Part shown: positions 52,677 to 58,126 of the stretch, piece by piece
Position numbering within the stretch: the first letter of the stretch is position 1
How the letters are laid out: each line of letters starts with the position of its first letter
Assembly (NCBI GenBank): GCA_020446425.1
Contig: JAGRES010000015.1
Span: 62,001-126,000 of the forward strand
DNA: 64,000 nt
DNA from: Sphingobium sp.
GTDB lineage: Bacteria > Pseudomonadota > Alphaproteobacteria > Sphingomonadales > Sphingomonadaceae
Direction of reading: 5' to 3'
Translations under genes and position numbers: made by a program
Notes under the pieces: model-generated
What the model saw: only the letters and a program-made list of their open reading frames with translations
Database searches by the model: none
Told to the model about the DNA's origin: nothing

Positions 52677-53039
52677 CTATACCTCTGGCTGCAACAGGCC
52701 GCTCAGCATCTGCCAGTCAGGGCTCTGATCTGCCTGTTCGGCCTGAGCCTGCAGCGCGCGATAATGGGTCAGGACCTCGCGGCCCATGGCCGAAACGGAC
52801 GCGCCGCCGCCTTTCGCGCCGCCTGCGCTGGTTTCTACCAATGGCGCGCGCCAGCACCGGTTCATCACCTCTACCAGCATCCAGCAGCGGCGATAGCTCA
52901 TGCCGAGCGCCCGGCCTGCCGCTGAGATCGAGCCATGCGCGATGATCGCATCCAACAGGTCGGCCTTGCCCGGTCCCATGGCGATGTCGTCGCCACAATA
53001 AATCTGGATCTTGATCTTCAGTAGAGGTGCTCCAGCCAT
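52677..53039 (-). CDS. ModE-type winged-helix regulator (DNA-binding domain only)
   Basis: 120 residues matching the N-terminal domain of the molybdate regulator ModE: KIKIQIYCGDDIAMGPGKADLLDAIIAHGSISAAGRALGMSYRRCWMLVEVMNRCW and GGAKGGGASVSAMGREVLTHYRAL. The C-terminal molybdate-binding (TOBE) part is absent, so metal sensing is not evident. It is convergent with the symporter gene, its stop being the next base. Placement beside nif genes suggests control of molybdenum or nif functions, by inference. Confidence 0.8.
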   Translation of the reverse strand: MAGAPLLKIKIQIYCGDDIAMGPGKADLLDAIIAHGSISAAGRALGMSYRRCWMLVEVMNRCWRAPLVETSAGGAKGGGASVSAMGREVLTHYRALQAQAEQADQSPDWQMLSGLLQPEV

Positions 53040-53057: not shown

Positions 53058-53531
53058 TTATGCCACTTCGAAAATAGCTTCGACCTCGACCGCGCAATCC
53101 ATCGGCAGTTCGGCCACGCCGACCGTCGAGCGGGCGTGCTTGCCTGCCTCACCGAAAATTTCGACCATCAGGTCGGATGCGCCGTTCATGATCTGCGGAA
53201 TGGCCGCATAGTCGGGTGTCGTATTGATGAACCCGCCGAGGCGTACGCAGCGCACTACCTTGTTGAGATCGCCATCCAATGCGGCCTTGACCTGCGCGAT
53301 GACATTGAGGGCGCAGATACGGGCGGCTTCTCGCCCCATTTCATCTGACACTCCGCCGCCAAGCTTGCCTTTATGGCGTTCGGCCAGCTTGCCGTCTGCG
53401 CCGAAACACACCTGTCCGGCAACGAATATCAGATTGCCTGAGCGAACATAGGGCACATAATTGGCCGCTGGCGCAGGTGCGGGCGGCAGTGCAATGCCAA
53501 GCTCGTTCAGGCGCTGCTCAATGTTGCTCAT
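53058..53531 (-). CDS. RidA/YjgF family protein
   Basis: A 157-residue member of the Rid family, which hydrolyses reactive enamine/imine intermediates. Motifs are SGNLIFVAGQVCFGADGKL, AARICALNVIAQVKAALDGDLNKVVRCVRLGGFINTTPDY, and ARSTVGVAELPMDCAVEVEAIFEV, with the conserved Arg (HARSTVGV). Length and the N-terminal extension (SNIEQRLNELGIALPPAPAP) mark a subfamily other than RidA proper. It follows fixX on the same strand after a 241-base structured gap. Confidence 0.85.
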   Translation of the reverse strand: MSNIEQRLNELGIALPPAPAPAANYVPYVRSGNLIFVAGQVCFGADGKLAERHKGKLGGGVSDEMGREAARICALNVIAQVKAALDGDLNKVVRCVRLGGFINTTPDYAAIPQIMNGASDLMVEIFGEAGKHARSTVGVAELPMDCAVEVEAIFEVA

Positions 53532-53595
53532 GACAGATAGTCTACCTTCAGGAAAATGGGGCCGGGAGCGGCTGTCACAGAGCCTATCTCATGAT

Positions 53596-53651
53596 GGATT
53601 TCCCCGTTCAACAGGGAAAGTACCGGGGAGTATGTATTTTTGGGGAAATCC
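53596..53651 (-). ncRNA. Structured leader between fixX and ridA
   Basis: The perfect 10-base arms GGATTTCCCC (53596-53605) and GGGGAAATCC (53642-53651) enclose a region that holds smaller stems (TTCCC/GGGAA). In the minus-strand transcript this is upstream of ridA by about 65 bases. It could be a regulatory RNA leader or a transcript stabiliser. An overlapping 75-codon frame (53528-53755) is not convincing. The rest of the 241-base gap shows no feature. Confidence 0.4.
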
Positions 53652-53772
53652 TGAGCGAGTGGTAACGCCTGTCGGCCTGACTGCACCTCCAGGCATATTT
53701 CAGCAAAACCCACTGACGGAATGACTGGCGCATAGGGGGTAGCATTAGCCGCCATTGTCGCGGCATTTGTTT

Positions 53773-54066
53773 TCAGCCGAATTTATACAGGATGCCGAAG
53801 CCGCCGCGTGGATAATTCCATTCGACTTCCCCGGTTGCTGACGTGACGATCCGGCATGTCCCGCATTCCAGGCAGCCGTCGGGCGCGATTTCGATCTGCC
53901 CCTGGTCATTGGCGCTATAGCAGCCGGCTGGACACATATATTCGAGCGAACGCAGCTGGGCGGACGGTATCTTGTGTGGCCGCACGCTGATGTGCGGCTT
54001 TCCCGCGTCGACGACGAAGCGATTGAAATAGAGCTTGTCTTCTACCTTGATCATGCTTTCGGCCAT
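53773..54066 (-). CDS. fixX: Ferredoxin-like protein FixX
   Basis: A 97-residue ferredoxin of the FixABCX electron-bifurcating complex, which supplies low-potential electrons to nitrogenase. The sequence [19 protein letters not shown] opens the family; the Cys ligands lie in YMCPAGCYS and [12 protein letters not shown], ending [22 protein letters not shown] 54066 follows GGAGACAGG. It usually ends a fixABCX operon, but here fixABC are not adjacent; a ferritin-like gene precedes it, 102 bases upstream. Confidence 0.93.
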
Positions 54067-54168: not shown

Positions 54169-54648
54169 CTATATGTTCAGTGTCACCGTCTTCCCCTGGG
54201 CCCTGGCGGCAATCCACCGCTTGAGTTCGGTGACATGAGCTTTTTCCTCGTCCACGAACTCTCGCGCAAAGGCTATGATCTCGGGATCGGTCGCCCTCGC
54301 CAGAACGTCGGAATAATAGTTCAGCCCCGCCATCTCTGCCGCCAGTGCGGTTTCGAGGGCTTCGTCGGGACCGATCAACGGGTCCGCGGCCCAGATTGCG
54401 GCGGATTCCGGGCTTTCATCATCAGGCCATACAAATTCCCCCGATTTCAGTTCGGGAATATCGCGAAACCCCGACCGCTCACGCGCATCGGCCAAATGAA
54501 GCCGTGAATAATGTGAGAGTTGTCGAAACAGCTTGCCGACCTCAGCATTACCGCCGCCTTCCATCGCGTCGGCCAGATGAGCAAAGCGGTCCGCCGCCTC
54601 GCGTTCCAGTTGAATGGCATGTGCCAGAAATTCTTCGACTGTTTCCAT
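54169..54648 (-). CDS. Ferritin-like (rubrerythrin-type) diiron protein
   Basis: A 159-residue four-helix-bundle protein. Candidate metal ligands are in FLAHAIQLEREAADRFAHLA (first helix), ETALAAEMAGLNYYSDVL and FAREFVDEEKAHVTELKRWI (Glu and ExxH). It lacks the rubredoxin-like Cys4 of classical rubrerythrin. It resembles the C-terminal half of the gene before it, so they look like tandem copies. ATG 54648 follows GGGG; in-frame ATG 54666 lacks a ribosome site. Likely roles are peroxide scavenging or iron handling near nitrogenase. Confidence 0.8.
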   Translation of the reverse strand: METVEEFLAHAIQLEREAADRFAHLADAMEGGGNAEVGKLFRQLSHYSRLHLADARERSGFRDIPELKSGEFVWPDDESPESAAIWAADPLIGPDEALETALAAEMAGLNYYSDVLARATDPEIIAFAREFVDEEKAHVTELKRWIAARAQGKTVTLNI

Positions 54649-54676
54649 GGGTGCCCCATCGTTCATGCTATCGGGA

Positions 54677-54717
54677 TGTCCCGGCCTCGCACGCATACGC
54701 CACGCGATGCCGGGACA
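54677..54717. repeat. Inverted repeat between the two ferritin-like genes
   Basis: TGTCCCGGC (54677-54685) and GCCGGGACA (54709-54717), perfect nine-base arms with a 23-base loop. It lies in the leftward operon and could adjust mRNA levels of the second ferritin-like gene and fixX. No T-run follows. Confidence 0.6.
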
Positions 54718-54724
54718 CCGATGT

Positions 54725-55645
54725 TCAGCTTACCGCTTCCTCCACTTCCGGGTGGGCGATGTTCCATTCCTCGCGGGTGATCGACGCCTCCAGGATTTTC
54801 AGATGCTCGGCCTCTTCCCTGACGAAGAGCTTAGCCATCTCGGCGACCTCGGCGACGTCCGATGTCGCGCCCATCGCCATATAGAATTCATAGCCGCGCC
54901 GTTCACCCAACAGCGCTGCCTTCAGTGCATCGAGCCGGCTCATATTGGGATCTCCGGCCATGAGCGACGTGCGTTCCGGCGTCGCCTGATCGGGCCACAC
55001 ATAGTCGGGTGGAATGACAGCATCGGCATCGAGTTTGGACGCCATTTCCTTGGCCTCCTTCAGATGTTGACGGGAAAAGCCGGCGAGCTGGTAGAACAGC
55101 TTGGCGACTTCGTCATTGCCGCATGCCTTCATATCCTCGGCAAGAGCATAGAAATGGGTTGCGGCATCTTCCTCGATCTTAACCGCATAGCCCAGGAATT
55201 CGTCGACGCTCCCGATCTTGATACCGCCTGTGAAACGCTTGGCGGCGTGGGTGATATGCGGGCGTTGAACGGGCAGGGTCTCGTCGCCCTCAAACCGTAC
55301 CATGATGTCCTCGTTGCGCACGAAGCATTGGCAGGCGAGGCGATGGCGCGGTGGCATGTCGTTCACCTCAGCCTCGAAAATCTCCTCCTTGGTGATTTTG
55401 CCGAGCTGCTTCAGCGTTTCCTTTTCCTCCTCGGTCAGCGCGATGCCATATTTGCTGTACTTGGTCGGTGCATAGAGATGCTCGACTTCGACTACGCATG
55501 ATCCGCAATTGCCGTCCTGGCAATCGAAGGGGATGGGGATGTTGTGTTGTTTGGCAACGGCTAGGACAGTCCCGCGATCTCCGGCGACCGCATAGACTGT
55601 GACGTCCTTTGCCATGCGCGGAGAAGAAAAAGTAACATTGGCCAT
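54725..55645 (-). CDS. 2Fe-2S ferredoxin/ferritin-like fusion protein
   Basis: A 306-residue two-domain protein. Residues 10-115 are a plant/adrenodoxin-like ferredoxin, with Cys42, Cys47 and Cys50 in DCQDGNCGSCVVEVEHL and Cys105/107 in RLACQCFV. Residues about 140-300 are a ferritin-like bundle (FLGYAVKIEEDAATHFYALAEDM; GERRGYEFYMAMG; FVREEAEHLKILEASI) with paired Glu/His ligands. The start at 55645 follows AGGAG. A sigma-54 promoter and NifA site precede it, so it is probably nitrogen-fixation induced. It may reduce peroxide or oxygen, or move iron, using electrons through its own ferredoxin. Confidence 0.85.
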   Translation of the reverse strand: MANVTFSSPRMAKDVTVYAVAGDRGTVLAVAKQHNIPIPFDCQDGNCGSCVVEVEHLYAPTKYSKYGIALTEEEKETLKQLGKITKEEIFEAEVNDMPPRHRLACQCFVRNEDIMVRFEGDETLPVQRPHITHAAKRFTGGIKIGSVDEFLGYAVKIEEDAATHFYALAEDMKACGNDEVAKLFYQLAGFSRQHLKEAKEMASKLDADAVIPPDYVWPDQATPERTSLMAGDPNMSRLDALKAALLGERRGYEFYMAMGATSDVAEVAEMAKLFVREEAEHLKILEASITREEWNIAHPEVEEAVS

Positions 55646-55703: not shown

Positions 55704-55719
55704 AGCAACAACCATGCCA
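55704..55719 (-). promoter_or_regulatory. Sigma-54 promoter of the leftward nif operon
   Basis: On the minus strand TGGCAT (55719-55714), five bases, TTGCT (55708-55704): both GG and GC are in place. It is 59 bases before the ferredoxin/ferritin fusion start. Confidence 0.8.
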
Positions 55720-55784: not shown

Positions 55785-55800
55785 TGTGCCCTTTGAAACA
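55785..55800. promoter_or_regulatory. NifA upstream activator site (TGT-N10-ACA), first copy
   Basis: TGT 55785-55787, ten bases, ACA 55798-55800. It lies 66 bases from the leftward -24 element and 133 from the rightward one, so it can serve both. Confidence 0.75.
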
Positions 55801-55873: not shown

Positions 55874-55889
55874 TGTAGGCTTTGCGACA
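55874..55889. promoter_or_regulatory. NifA upstream activator site (TGT-N10-ACA), second copy
   Basis: TGT 55874-55876, ten bases, ACA 55887-55889. It is only 44 bases before the rightward -24 element, and 155 from the leftward one. So the two sites and two promoters make a symmetric regulatory block. Confidence 0.75.
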
Positions 55890-55932: not shown

Positions 55933-55948
55933 TGGCACGATAGCTGCA
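55933..55948 (+). promoter_or_regulatory. Sigma-54 promoter of the rightward fdx-lrv-nifT operon
   Basis: TGGCAC (55933-55938), five bases, CTGCA (55944-55948). The GG and GC dinucleotides are spaced as required. It ends 35 bases before the ferredoxin start. Confidence 0.75.
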
Positions 55949-55982: not shown

Positions 55983-56177
55983 ATGGCTTACAAGATTATT
56001 GCATCGCAATGCACCGGTTGCAGCGCCTGCGAATTTGAATGCCCGAATGCGGCGATTTCGATGAAGGGGGATACTTTCATCATCGACCCCAACAAATGCA
56101 CCGAGTGTGAGGGAGAATATGATCATCCGCAGTGCGACACGGTGTGCCCGGTTCCCAAGACCTGCGTGCCTGCCTGA
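55983..56177 (+). CDS. 2[4Fe-4S] ferredoxin, nif-associated
   Basis: A 64-residue electron carrier, probably a donor to nitrogenase or its maturation enzymes. The Cys patterns are [12 protein letters not shown] and [18 protein letters not shown]; the longer gap in the second cluster is typical of FdxN/FdB-type nif ferredoxins. ATG 55983 follows GGAGGACC. It is the first gene behind the rightward sigma-54 promoter and is closely followed by the LRV gene. Confidence 0.92.
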
Positions 56178-57283: not shown

Positions 57284-58126
57284 ATGACGACGACGCTCGC
57301 CAATCCGAAACTTGCCGTGAAGGAAATCGCCGAAGGGCTGCGCGCCGGGGACATTGTGCCGTATCTCGGGCCTGCTATTTCCGCGCTTTCATCGCCGCAA
57401 GCCCCCATGTCTCCGGACGATCTCGCAGCCTTCTTCGGCTCTAAGGTAACGCTGCCCAAACGCGCCATAGGCAATGCCTGGGCCAGCGCGCAATATATCG
57501 AGAGCTACAAGCACCGCAGCACGGTGACCGCGCTGATGGCGGAAGCATTTTCCACGCCCGTCGCGCCGTCTGCCTTTCATGAGTGGCTGGCCGGGCTGGG
57601 CCTGCCCTTGATCGTGGACAGCTGGTATGCCTCAGAAATGCGTGGTGCGCTCAGCGGTCGCGATGGCTGGATAGAAGTGCAGGGCATCACGCGTGCCGGT
57701 ATTGGCGAAGATTGCTGGTATCGCTTCTATGGTCCCGATGGCAGCCAGACCGATACGGCGGCTGCATCGGCAGCCCGGACCATAGTCTACACGCCCCATG
57801 GCGGGATTGCGCCTGAGCAGAACTTCCTGATCACCGATGCCGATTATGTCGAGATATTGACCGAGATCGATATCCAGACACCGATCCCGGAAGTGGTCCG
57901 CCAGCGCCGCACGGGCAAGCCGTTCCTGTTCGTCGGCTGCCGCTTCCACGACCAGATGCTGCGCAGCTATGCGCGGCAGATCATCAAGCGCTCTGGTGAT
58001 CCGCATTATGCGGTGGTCGATCTCGCCAGCCTGACACGCAACGAACTGCGGTTCCTCGACGAGCAGAATATCACGCCGGTCGAGATGGATCTGGCCGAAT
58101 TTCTTGAGGTGCTCCCCGCCGCTTGA
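57284..58126 (+). CDS. SIR2-like domain protein in the nif operon
   Basis: A 280-residue protein of the SIR2_2 type. GDIVPYLGPAIS near residue 25 matches the NAD-binding glycine loop in altered form, TPHGGIAPEQNFLITDADYVEIL near 170 the HG..P..L..T..DY motif, and GKPFLFVGCRFHDQMLRSYARQII near 210 the FLFVGYSFxDxxLR motif. The catalytic His of deacetylases is not certain; His171 is a candidate. It follows nifT by one base and is closed by a terminator. SIR2-like domains often occur in immune effectors, but this context suggests a nitrogen-fixation role, perhaps linked to NAD or ADP-ribosylation control. Confidence 0.72.
   Translation: MTTTLANPKLAVKEIAEGLRAGDIVPYLGPAISALSSPQAPMSPDDLAAFFGSKVTLPKRAIGNAWASAQYIESYKHRSTVTALMAEAFSTPVAPSAFHEWLAGLGLPLIVDSWYASEMRGALSGRDGWIEVQGITRAGIGEDCWYRFYGPDGSQTDTAAASAARTIVYTPHGGIAPEQNFLITDADYVEILTEIDIQTPIPEVVRQRRTGKPFLFVGCRFHDQMLRSYARQIIKRSGDPHYAVVDLASLTRNELRFLDEQNITPVEMDLAEFLEVLPAA

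Follow-up and report, generated by a model that had tools for sequence, protein, structure and literature searches.

A 64,000-nucleotide stretch of a Sphingobium sp. contig (GenBank assembly GCA_020446425.1, JAGRES010000015.1, positions 62,001 to 126,000 of the forward strand; hereafter the window, with coordinates counted from its first letter) carries, alongside nitrogen-fixation (nif) genes, a gene that joins a ferredoxin resembling Shethna protein II (FeSII) to a ferritin-like four-helix bundle. The gene (54725..55645, minus strand) encodes 306 residues from an ATG at 55645. Its open reading frame (ORF), its Pfam matches to Fer2 (residues 19-63, E 2.2e-9) and Rubrerythrin (149-210, E 3.1e-10) and its PDB matches (5ffi, 2oh3) delimit a FeSII-like [2Fe-2S] domain (residues 1-121; 55283..55645, minus strand) with Cys42/47/50/105, a linker of about residues 122-146, and a bundle (residues 147-297; 54755..55207, minus strand) whose helices were taken from a structure model. 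A stand-alone bundle of 159 residues, a paralogue of the fused one, lies in tandem (54169..54648, minus strand); its best start is the ATG at 54648, conserved among orthologues, and Rubrerythrin is the one Pfam family for which the protein exceeds the cut-off (E 2e-7). A preliminary description of this DNA had recognised both the fusion, with the same four cysteines, and the tandem copy, and the present analysis bears it out on both points. A frame or assembly error was rejected, as orthologues in other assemblies are 84-85% identical over 301 residues, and so was a single-genome oddity, the fusion being present in 24 genomes including the window.

The best PDB match of the ferredoxin half in phmmer is Shethna protein II of Azotobacter (5ffi; residues 1-121, E 7e-32), with a heterocyst ferredoxin far behind (E 0.005), and 58 of 118 aligned residues (49%) are identical to FeSII. 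The alignment with FeSII of Azotobacter vinelandii (5ffi; also 9cu0-9cu2) is full-length and includes the four cysteines, the N-loop and lid helix (residues 59-96) of FeSII, and His55, a proposed tuner of FeSII affinity by redox state, which is His in the window protein and in 19 of the 24 fusions. The cluster cysteines keep FeSII spacing in all 59 FeSII-like rows aligned, a table that leaves out L083, L084, L090 and the second FeSII-like copy of G628 (G, C and L numbers are our handles for genomes, contigs and loci). In that last genome, two FeSII-like copies, one of them diverged, lie side by side a few kb from nifH (G628:C4:16116-16986; L090/L068).

According to the available portions of the literature, FeSII locks the MoFe and Fe proteins of nitrogenase together in an oxygen-resistant, inactive complex, following activation by an oxidation-induced change (PMC12585515; PMC11301756); a large 'open' form is disputed in PMC11301756, and the accessible part of the same paper places demonstrated protective activity in two Azotobacter species only. 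FdxD of Rhodobacter capsulatus, likened here by description and not by sequence, is labelled a Shethna ferredoxin, depends on NifA and has been linked to oxygen protection of Mo-nitrogenase, and differs in that no bundle is mentioned for it in the accessible part of its report (PMC6925177). Among the papers listed in a literature search, with most subscription journals outside its reach, none was found to describe the fusion.

For the bundle, a four-helix ferritin-like fold is supported by the match to 2oh3 and by the model helices. The protein resembles rubrerythrin in its Pfam family and in having a redox domain attached to the bundle, and differs from it in that the redox domain is N-terminal, [2Fe-2S] and FeSII-like, and in that one diiron ligand is missing; no C-terminal rubredoxin domain was matched in Pfam at E up to 1. 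The solo protein scored 29.4 bits against the encapsulated-ferritin family EncB_fam of NCBIfam, below the cut-off of 90. In canonical diiron ferritin-like proteins, the helix-B glutamate is a bridging ligand. Both window bundles have Ser in its place and keep the other five of the six canonical ligands: the fused bundle carries E158, S191-R192-x-H194, E248, E278 and H281 (S191-R192 codons at 55070..55075, minus strand), and the solo bundle the same five ligands with the motif SRLH. This S-R-x-H occupies the position of E-x-x-H in ExxH-type relatives, with Ser and Arg each in 35/35 rows of the core clade vs Glu at the first position in 18/18 rows of the ExxH outgroup (which includes L002-L004 from G045, G051 and G058, outside the nifH check); a helix-A Tyr, likewise present in 18/18 outgroup rows, is Phe in 30 of the 35 core rows. 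At the helix-B Glu position, all 24 fused bundles have Ser or Ala and all 25 unfused bundles tabulated have Ser, and the remaining five ligands are retained in 22/24 and 25/25, respectively. Conservation of five ligands suggests that the site is in use, and uniform loss of the sixth shows that it is not a canonical one.

The two departures among the fused bundles, L098 and L099 (G901, G1018), lack three further ligands, with Ala in place of the helix-C Glu and Lys/Arg in place of the helix-D Glu/His, and the adjacent solo bundles keep all five. A replacement helix-B carboxylate was considered at residue 197, which is acidic in most rows and Gln in L013; by helical-wheel reasoning, this residue probably does not face the metal site. 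Other bundles from nifH genomes have Ala (G628, G762) or Gly (G543) at the Glu position, SRxH having been expected for G628; one match in G071:C14 (78.7 bits) and two extra bundle matches in G069 were left out of the alignment. A second subgroup of bundles with Ser for the helix-B Glu comprises L082 (G473:C16) and 2oh3 itself, a COG1633 protein of Magnetospirillum magnetotacticum that differs from the window fusion as a 167-residue chain lacking a ferredoxin domain and reading S-T-L-H where the window has S-R-x-H; a literature search on 2oh3 found no paper.

By sequence, the fused and stand-alone bundles are inherited together. The fusion comes with a separate bundle match in 23 of the 24 genomes; the exception, L013/G068, is a metagenome-assembled genome (MAG) whose contig spans 3 kb. 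In a tree of 60 bundle rows, which covers 17 of the 24 fusions (seven later fusions and three unfused pairs stand outside it), fused bundles form one clade (support 100/100), 14 adjacent solo bundles form another (98/88), and the two are sister groups (94/80). Unfused bundles of nifH genomes fall outside both, as in G118, where a stand-alone FeSII-like gene and a stand-alone bundle share one nif cluster. Unfused FeSII-like and bundle genes are directly adjacent in three genomes, in two of them next to nifH: in G854 and G992, the bundle gene comes immediately after the FeSII-like gene, and the pair diverges from nifH. Given the sister clades and the unfused adjacent pairs, the simplest history would be duplication of a bundle, then fusion of two adjacent genes.

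The fusion gene is preceded by a sigma-54 (-24/-12) type site, TGGCATGGTTGTTGC (55704..55719, minus strand), which differs from TGGCAC-N5-TTGC at one position and begins 74 bp before the ATG; a NifA-type TGT-N10-ACA site (55785..55800, no strand assigned) lies 81 bp upstream of this sigma-54 site, and a second (55874..55889, likewise) lies between this promoter and a divergent sigma-54 type site, TGGCACGATAGCTGCA (55933..55948, plus strand), upstream of an fdxN-type ferredoxin gene that begins at 55983 on the plus strand. Of the 16 first fusion genes, among which the near relatives (the five from Rhodopseudomonas included) are not mutually independent, 16/16 have a sigma-54 site of no more than two mismatches within 200 bp, at 57-189 bp upstream, vs 5.9% of stretches drawn at random from these loci; 11/16 have in addition a TGT-N10-ACA site 60-160 bp further up, vs 0.43%, most of the 11 lying at loci whose covered stretch shows no nif genes. 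Eight more fusion genes were scored within 250 bp, with a site in four (G423, L093, L098, L099), giving 20 of 24 overall; the unfused pairs of FeSII-like and bundle genes have one in 3/3. FNR-type palindromes with at most one mismatch lie upstream of 4 of the 16 first fusion genes (L006, L007, L008, L010), and a palindrome-like stretch (TTTACACTTAGTGTAA) is common to L094-L097, where it precedes the fusion gene by about 80-95 bp.

By its promoter, the window fusion would thus belong to the NifA/sigma-54 regulon, and the sigma-54/NifA control put forward in the preliminary description holds as far as promoter sequence goes. The same description had suggested a survey for the fusion in other nif clusters; the fusion indeed recurs, in the 24 genomes, but few of the examined loci contain nif genes. 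A tblastn search with 14 marker proteins over 15 scan loci, which span 3-21 kb so that linkage farther away is possible, found nifB or nifH in L009 only, fixC with fixX in L020, and fixX alone in L007, L010 and L011; in G1065 (L125), the fusion lies within a few kb of nifB. Adjacency to nif genes is not relied on here. Because the promoter sites are present even though few loci contain nif genes, membership of the regulon looks selected for, regardless of position.

The tie to nitrogen fixation that had been proposed for the window extends across genomes. A genome scan found 15 further fusions in Novosphingobium, Zavarzinia, Alteraurantiacibacter, Telmatospirillum, Rhodopseudomonas (orthologues in L015-L019) and MAGs, and sampling added G423 and seven more genomes. 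Of these 24 fusion genomes, 23 have nifH over the cut-off, the exception being a MAG (L011/G066); in 23 of the 24, the thresholds used revealed no FeSII-like gene besides the fusion, so that the fusion seems to replace a separate one, and G423 has both. An alphaproteobacterial sample of 385 genomes including the window contained 12 with nifH. All 373 genomes lacking nifH were searched, with at most six first-look candidates scored per genome and a limit of E 1e-15. The fusion occurred in 5/12 nifH-positive vs 0/373 nifH-negative genomes, the FeSII-like domain in any form in 7/12 vs 0/373, and bundle matches scoring 120 bits or more in 9/12 vs 0/373 (Fisher p about 5e-16, with the window among the 12); weaker bundle matches in 14 nifH-negative genomes were all of the ExxH type (14/14). 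In this sample, three of the five fusion genomes (G319, G117 and G244) were already known from the genome scan and G000 is the window, and the gammaproteobacterial G075 was made the centre of its own sample on account of its fusion; none of these counts as an independent find.

In the order of Rhodopseudomonas pseudopalustris, nifH occurs in 40 of 249 genomes, with the fusion in 8, the unfused adjacent pair in 3, a FeSII-like domain alone in 11 and neither in 18. Twenty of the 209 nifH-negative genomes were searched, in none of which was a FeSII-like domain found; a single bundle among them (G847) is of the ExxH type. The class of G075 gave a nifH match in 32 of 369 genomes, of which 18 have a separate FeSII-like gene (one a fragment), 5 show bundle matches, and G075 carries the fusion; the 20 nifH-negative genomes searched there, of 337, again yielded no FeSII-like domain, and one of them contains bundles, one with Ser for the helix-B Glu.

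The reading we favour, and to which we would give an even chance, is that the window protein is a nif-regulon factor that protects against oxygen in the manner of FeSII and is anchored to a ferritin-like oligomer which the solo gene helps to build. Expressed together with nif genes, the FeSII-like N-terminal half would, when oxidised, bind and shield nitrogenase; the bundle half would tether this module to an oligomer shared with the stand-alone bundle, which would cluster FeSII modules for assembly of the shield; and the altered site (two His, three Glu, with Ser replacing the helix-B Glu) would bind iron with no canonical diiron peroxidase activity, and may relay an oxidant signal to the [2Fe-2S] cluster. 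The extra ligand loss in the fused copies of L098 and L099 fits a tethering role for the fused bundle. A more elaborate version, considerably less probable to our minds, has O2 or peroxide at the altered iron site draw an electron from the [2Fe-2S] cluster, electrons flowing towards the bundle, and thereby switch the FeSII-like half to its nitrogenase-binding state; were this true, oxidant detection and conformational protection would be coupled within one protein complex.

The FeSII-like domain recurs across nitrogen-fixing alphaproteobacteria and in 24 genomes is physically joined to its ferritin-like partner, which suggests a possible second way of building a nitrogenase shield. If the fusion does protect nitrogenase, conformational protection would be wider than has been shown and would involve a second component, a prospect relevant to efforts at running nitrogenase in oxygenic hosts. 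The earlier statement that no function had been described for the fusion was too pessimistic for the ferredoxin half, whose relative FeSII protects against oxygen. In addition, the Ser-for-Glu site provides a ready natural variant for probing a ferritin-like site minus that carboxylate.

Several observations weigh against protection by a tethered FeSII-type factor. In Azotobacter, K14 and K15 of FeSII are reported, in the part of the study available, to be required for nitrogenase binding (PMC3045800); their equivalents in the window protein are Val15-Thr16 (Met counted), V/I-T occurs in 24/24 fusions, and a Lys-Lys pair is found in just 2 of the 59 FeSII-like rows, both PDB sequences. It is because of this missing pair that the protein is named FeSII-like and not FeSII, from which it also differs in carrying a bundle. 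Neither the FeSII-like domain nor the bundle turns up at E 1e-10 in 18 of the 40 nifH-positive genomes of the Rhodopseudomonas order, so the system would be optional; no recognisable sigma-54 site was found within 250 bp in 4 of the 24 fusion genes (L094-L097); and Ser at the helix-B Glu position also occurs in one bundle of G473 (L082, G473:C16), a genome with no nifH, so that the Glu-to-Ser change alone does not single out nitrogen fixers. That the two bundles assemble together is something we infer. Moreover, the structure model of the fusion is poor (mean predicted local distance difference test score, pLDDT, 53.9; mostly below 50 in the ferredoxin half and about 70-80 in the bundle helices), and metal-site geometry can therefore not be judged from it.

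Among other explanations, the principal one, which we regard as unlikely, is an electron-fed peroxidase or oxidase, in which electrons from the [2Fe-2S] domain would let a rubrerythrin-like iron site reduce H2O2 or O2 close to nitrogenase. The preliminary description had put first a self-contained enzyme of this kind, had left to prediction whether both diiron sites are intact, and had regarded loss of metal ligands in the bundle as damaging to its proposal; such a loss is seen in part, for one ligand of six in each window bundle. Membership of the Rubrerythrin family and the five ligands kept in both window proteins, as in most fused and all tabulated unfused bundles, speak for such an enzyme, but the proposal is weakened by the substitution of the sixth ligand throughout, by the change of the helix-A Tyr to Phe in most core rows, and by the loss of three of the five remaining ligands in 2 of the 24 fusions. 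A parallel exists in the [FeFe] hydrogenase-rubrerythrin chimera of Clostridium perfringens, which couples H2 oxidation to H2O2 reduction and likewise joins an electron-transfer module to a rubrerythrin-type bundle; it differs in its electron source, and no nif link was seen for it in the available part of the report (PMC11926857).

Less probable again is a role in iron handling, whereby the bundle would bind iron destined for assembly of the nitrogenase cofactor and the ferredoxin half would reduce and release it, as bacterioferritin-associated ferredoxin does on bacterioferritin; the ferritin-like fold, the attached reductant domain, the nif-type promoter and the proximity of the fusion to fdxN and nifB in the window, L009 and G1065 are all compatible with it. 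That the fusion is a ferredoxin supplying nitrogenase, with the bundle serving merely as an oligomerisation tag, seems very improbable, even though a [2Fe-2S] domain, a nif-type promoter and a downstream fixX in the same direction could be so read: two fdxN-type ferredoxins are already present in the window cluster, and a midpoint potential of -262 mV is high for an electron donor. This is the value given for FeSII (PMC11301756), and FdxD, according to the accessible part of another report, did not donate electrons to Mo-nitrogenase in vitro (PMC10936413). We give equally little credence to a regulatory sensor that detects oxygen and acts on nif expression instead of on nitrogenase itself; the pairing of a redox-active cluster with a likely iron site under a nif-type promoter would suit one, but Pfam and NCBIfam report no DNA-binding or signalling domain in the protein, and its FeSII-like half points to nitrogenase.

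On the nif side of the window cluster, an fdxN-type gene comes first, followed by genes for an LRV_FeS protein, nifT, a SIR2-like protein, nifB (radical SAM and FeMo-co domains) and nifZ, and nifH starts just past the window at contig position 127242. The SIR2-like gene (57284-58126, plus strand), between nifT and nifB, occupies the same place in L009/L059, L061 and L063. Downstream of the fusion and solo genes, and in the same direction, lies a fixX-like ferredoxin gene (53773..54066, minus strand), with 76.9 of 166 bits for NCBIfam FixX, below the cut-off, and a Pfam Fer4_ETF_QO match; fixX follows the fusion/solo pair also in L007, L010 and L011. The window copy has no fixABC alongside, and fixC with a second fixX is found elsewhere on the same contig (C10:145740). 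Beyond the fixX-like gene, a 75-residue ORF (53528-53755, minus strand), for which Pfam gave no match at E 0.01, separates it from a YjgF-family gene (53058-53531), after which an ORF at 52677-53039 shows a weak HTH_1 match.
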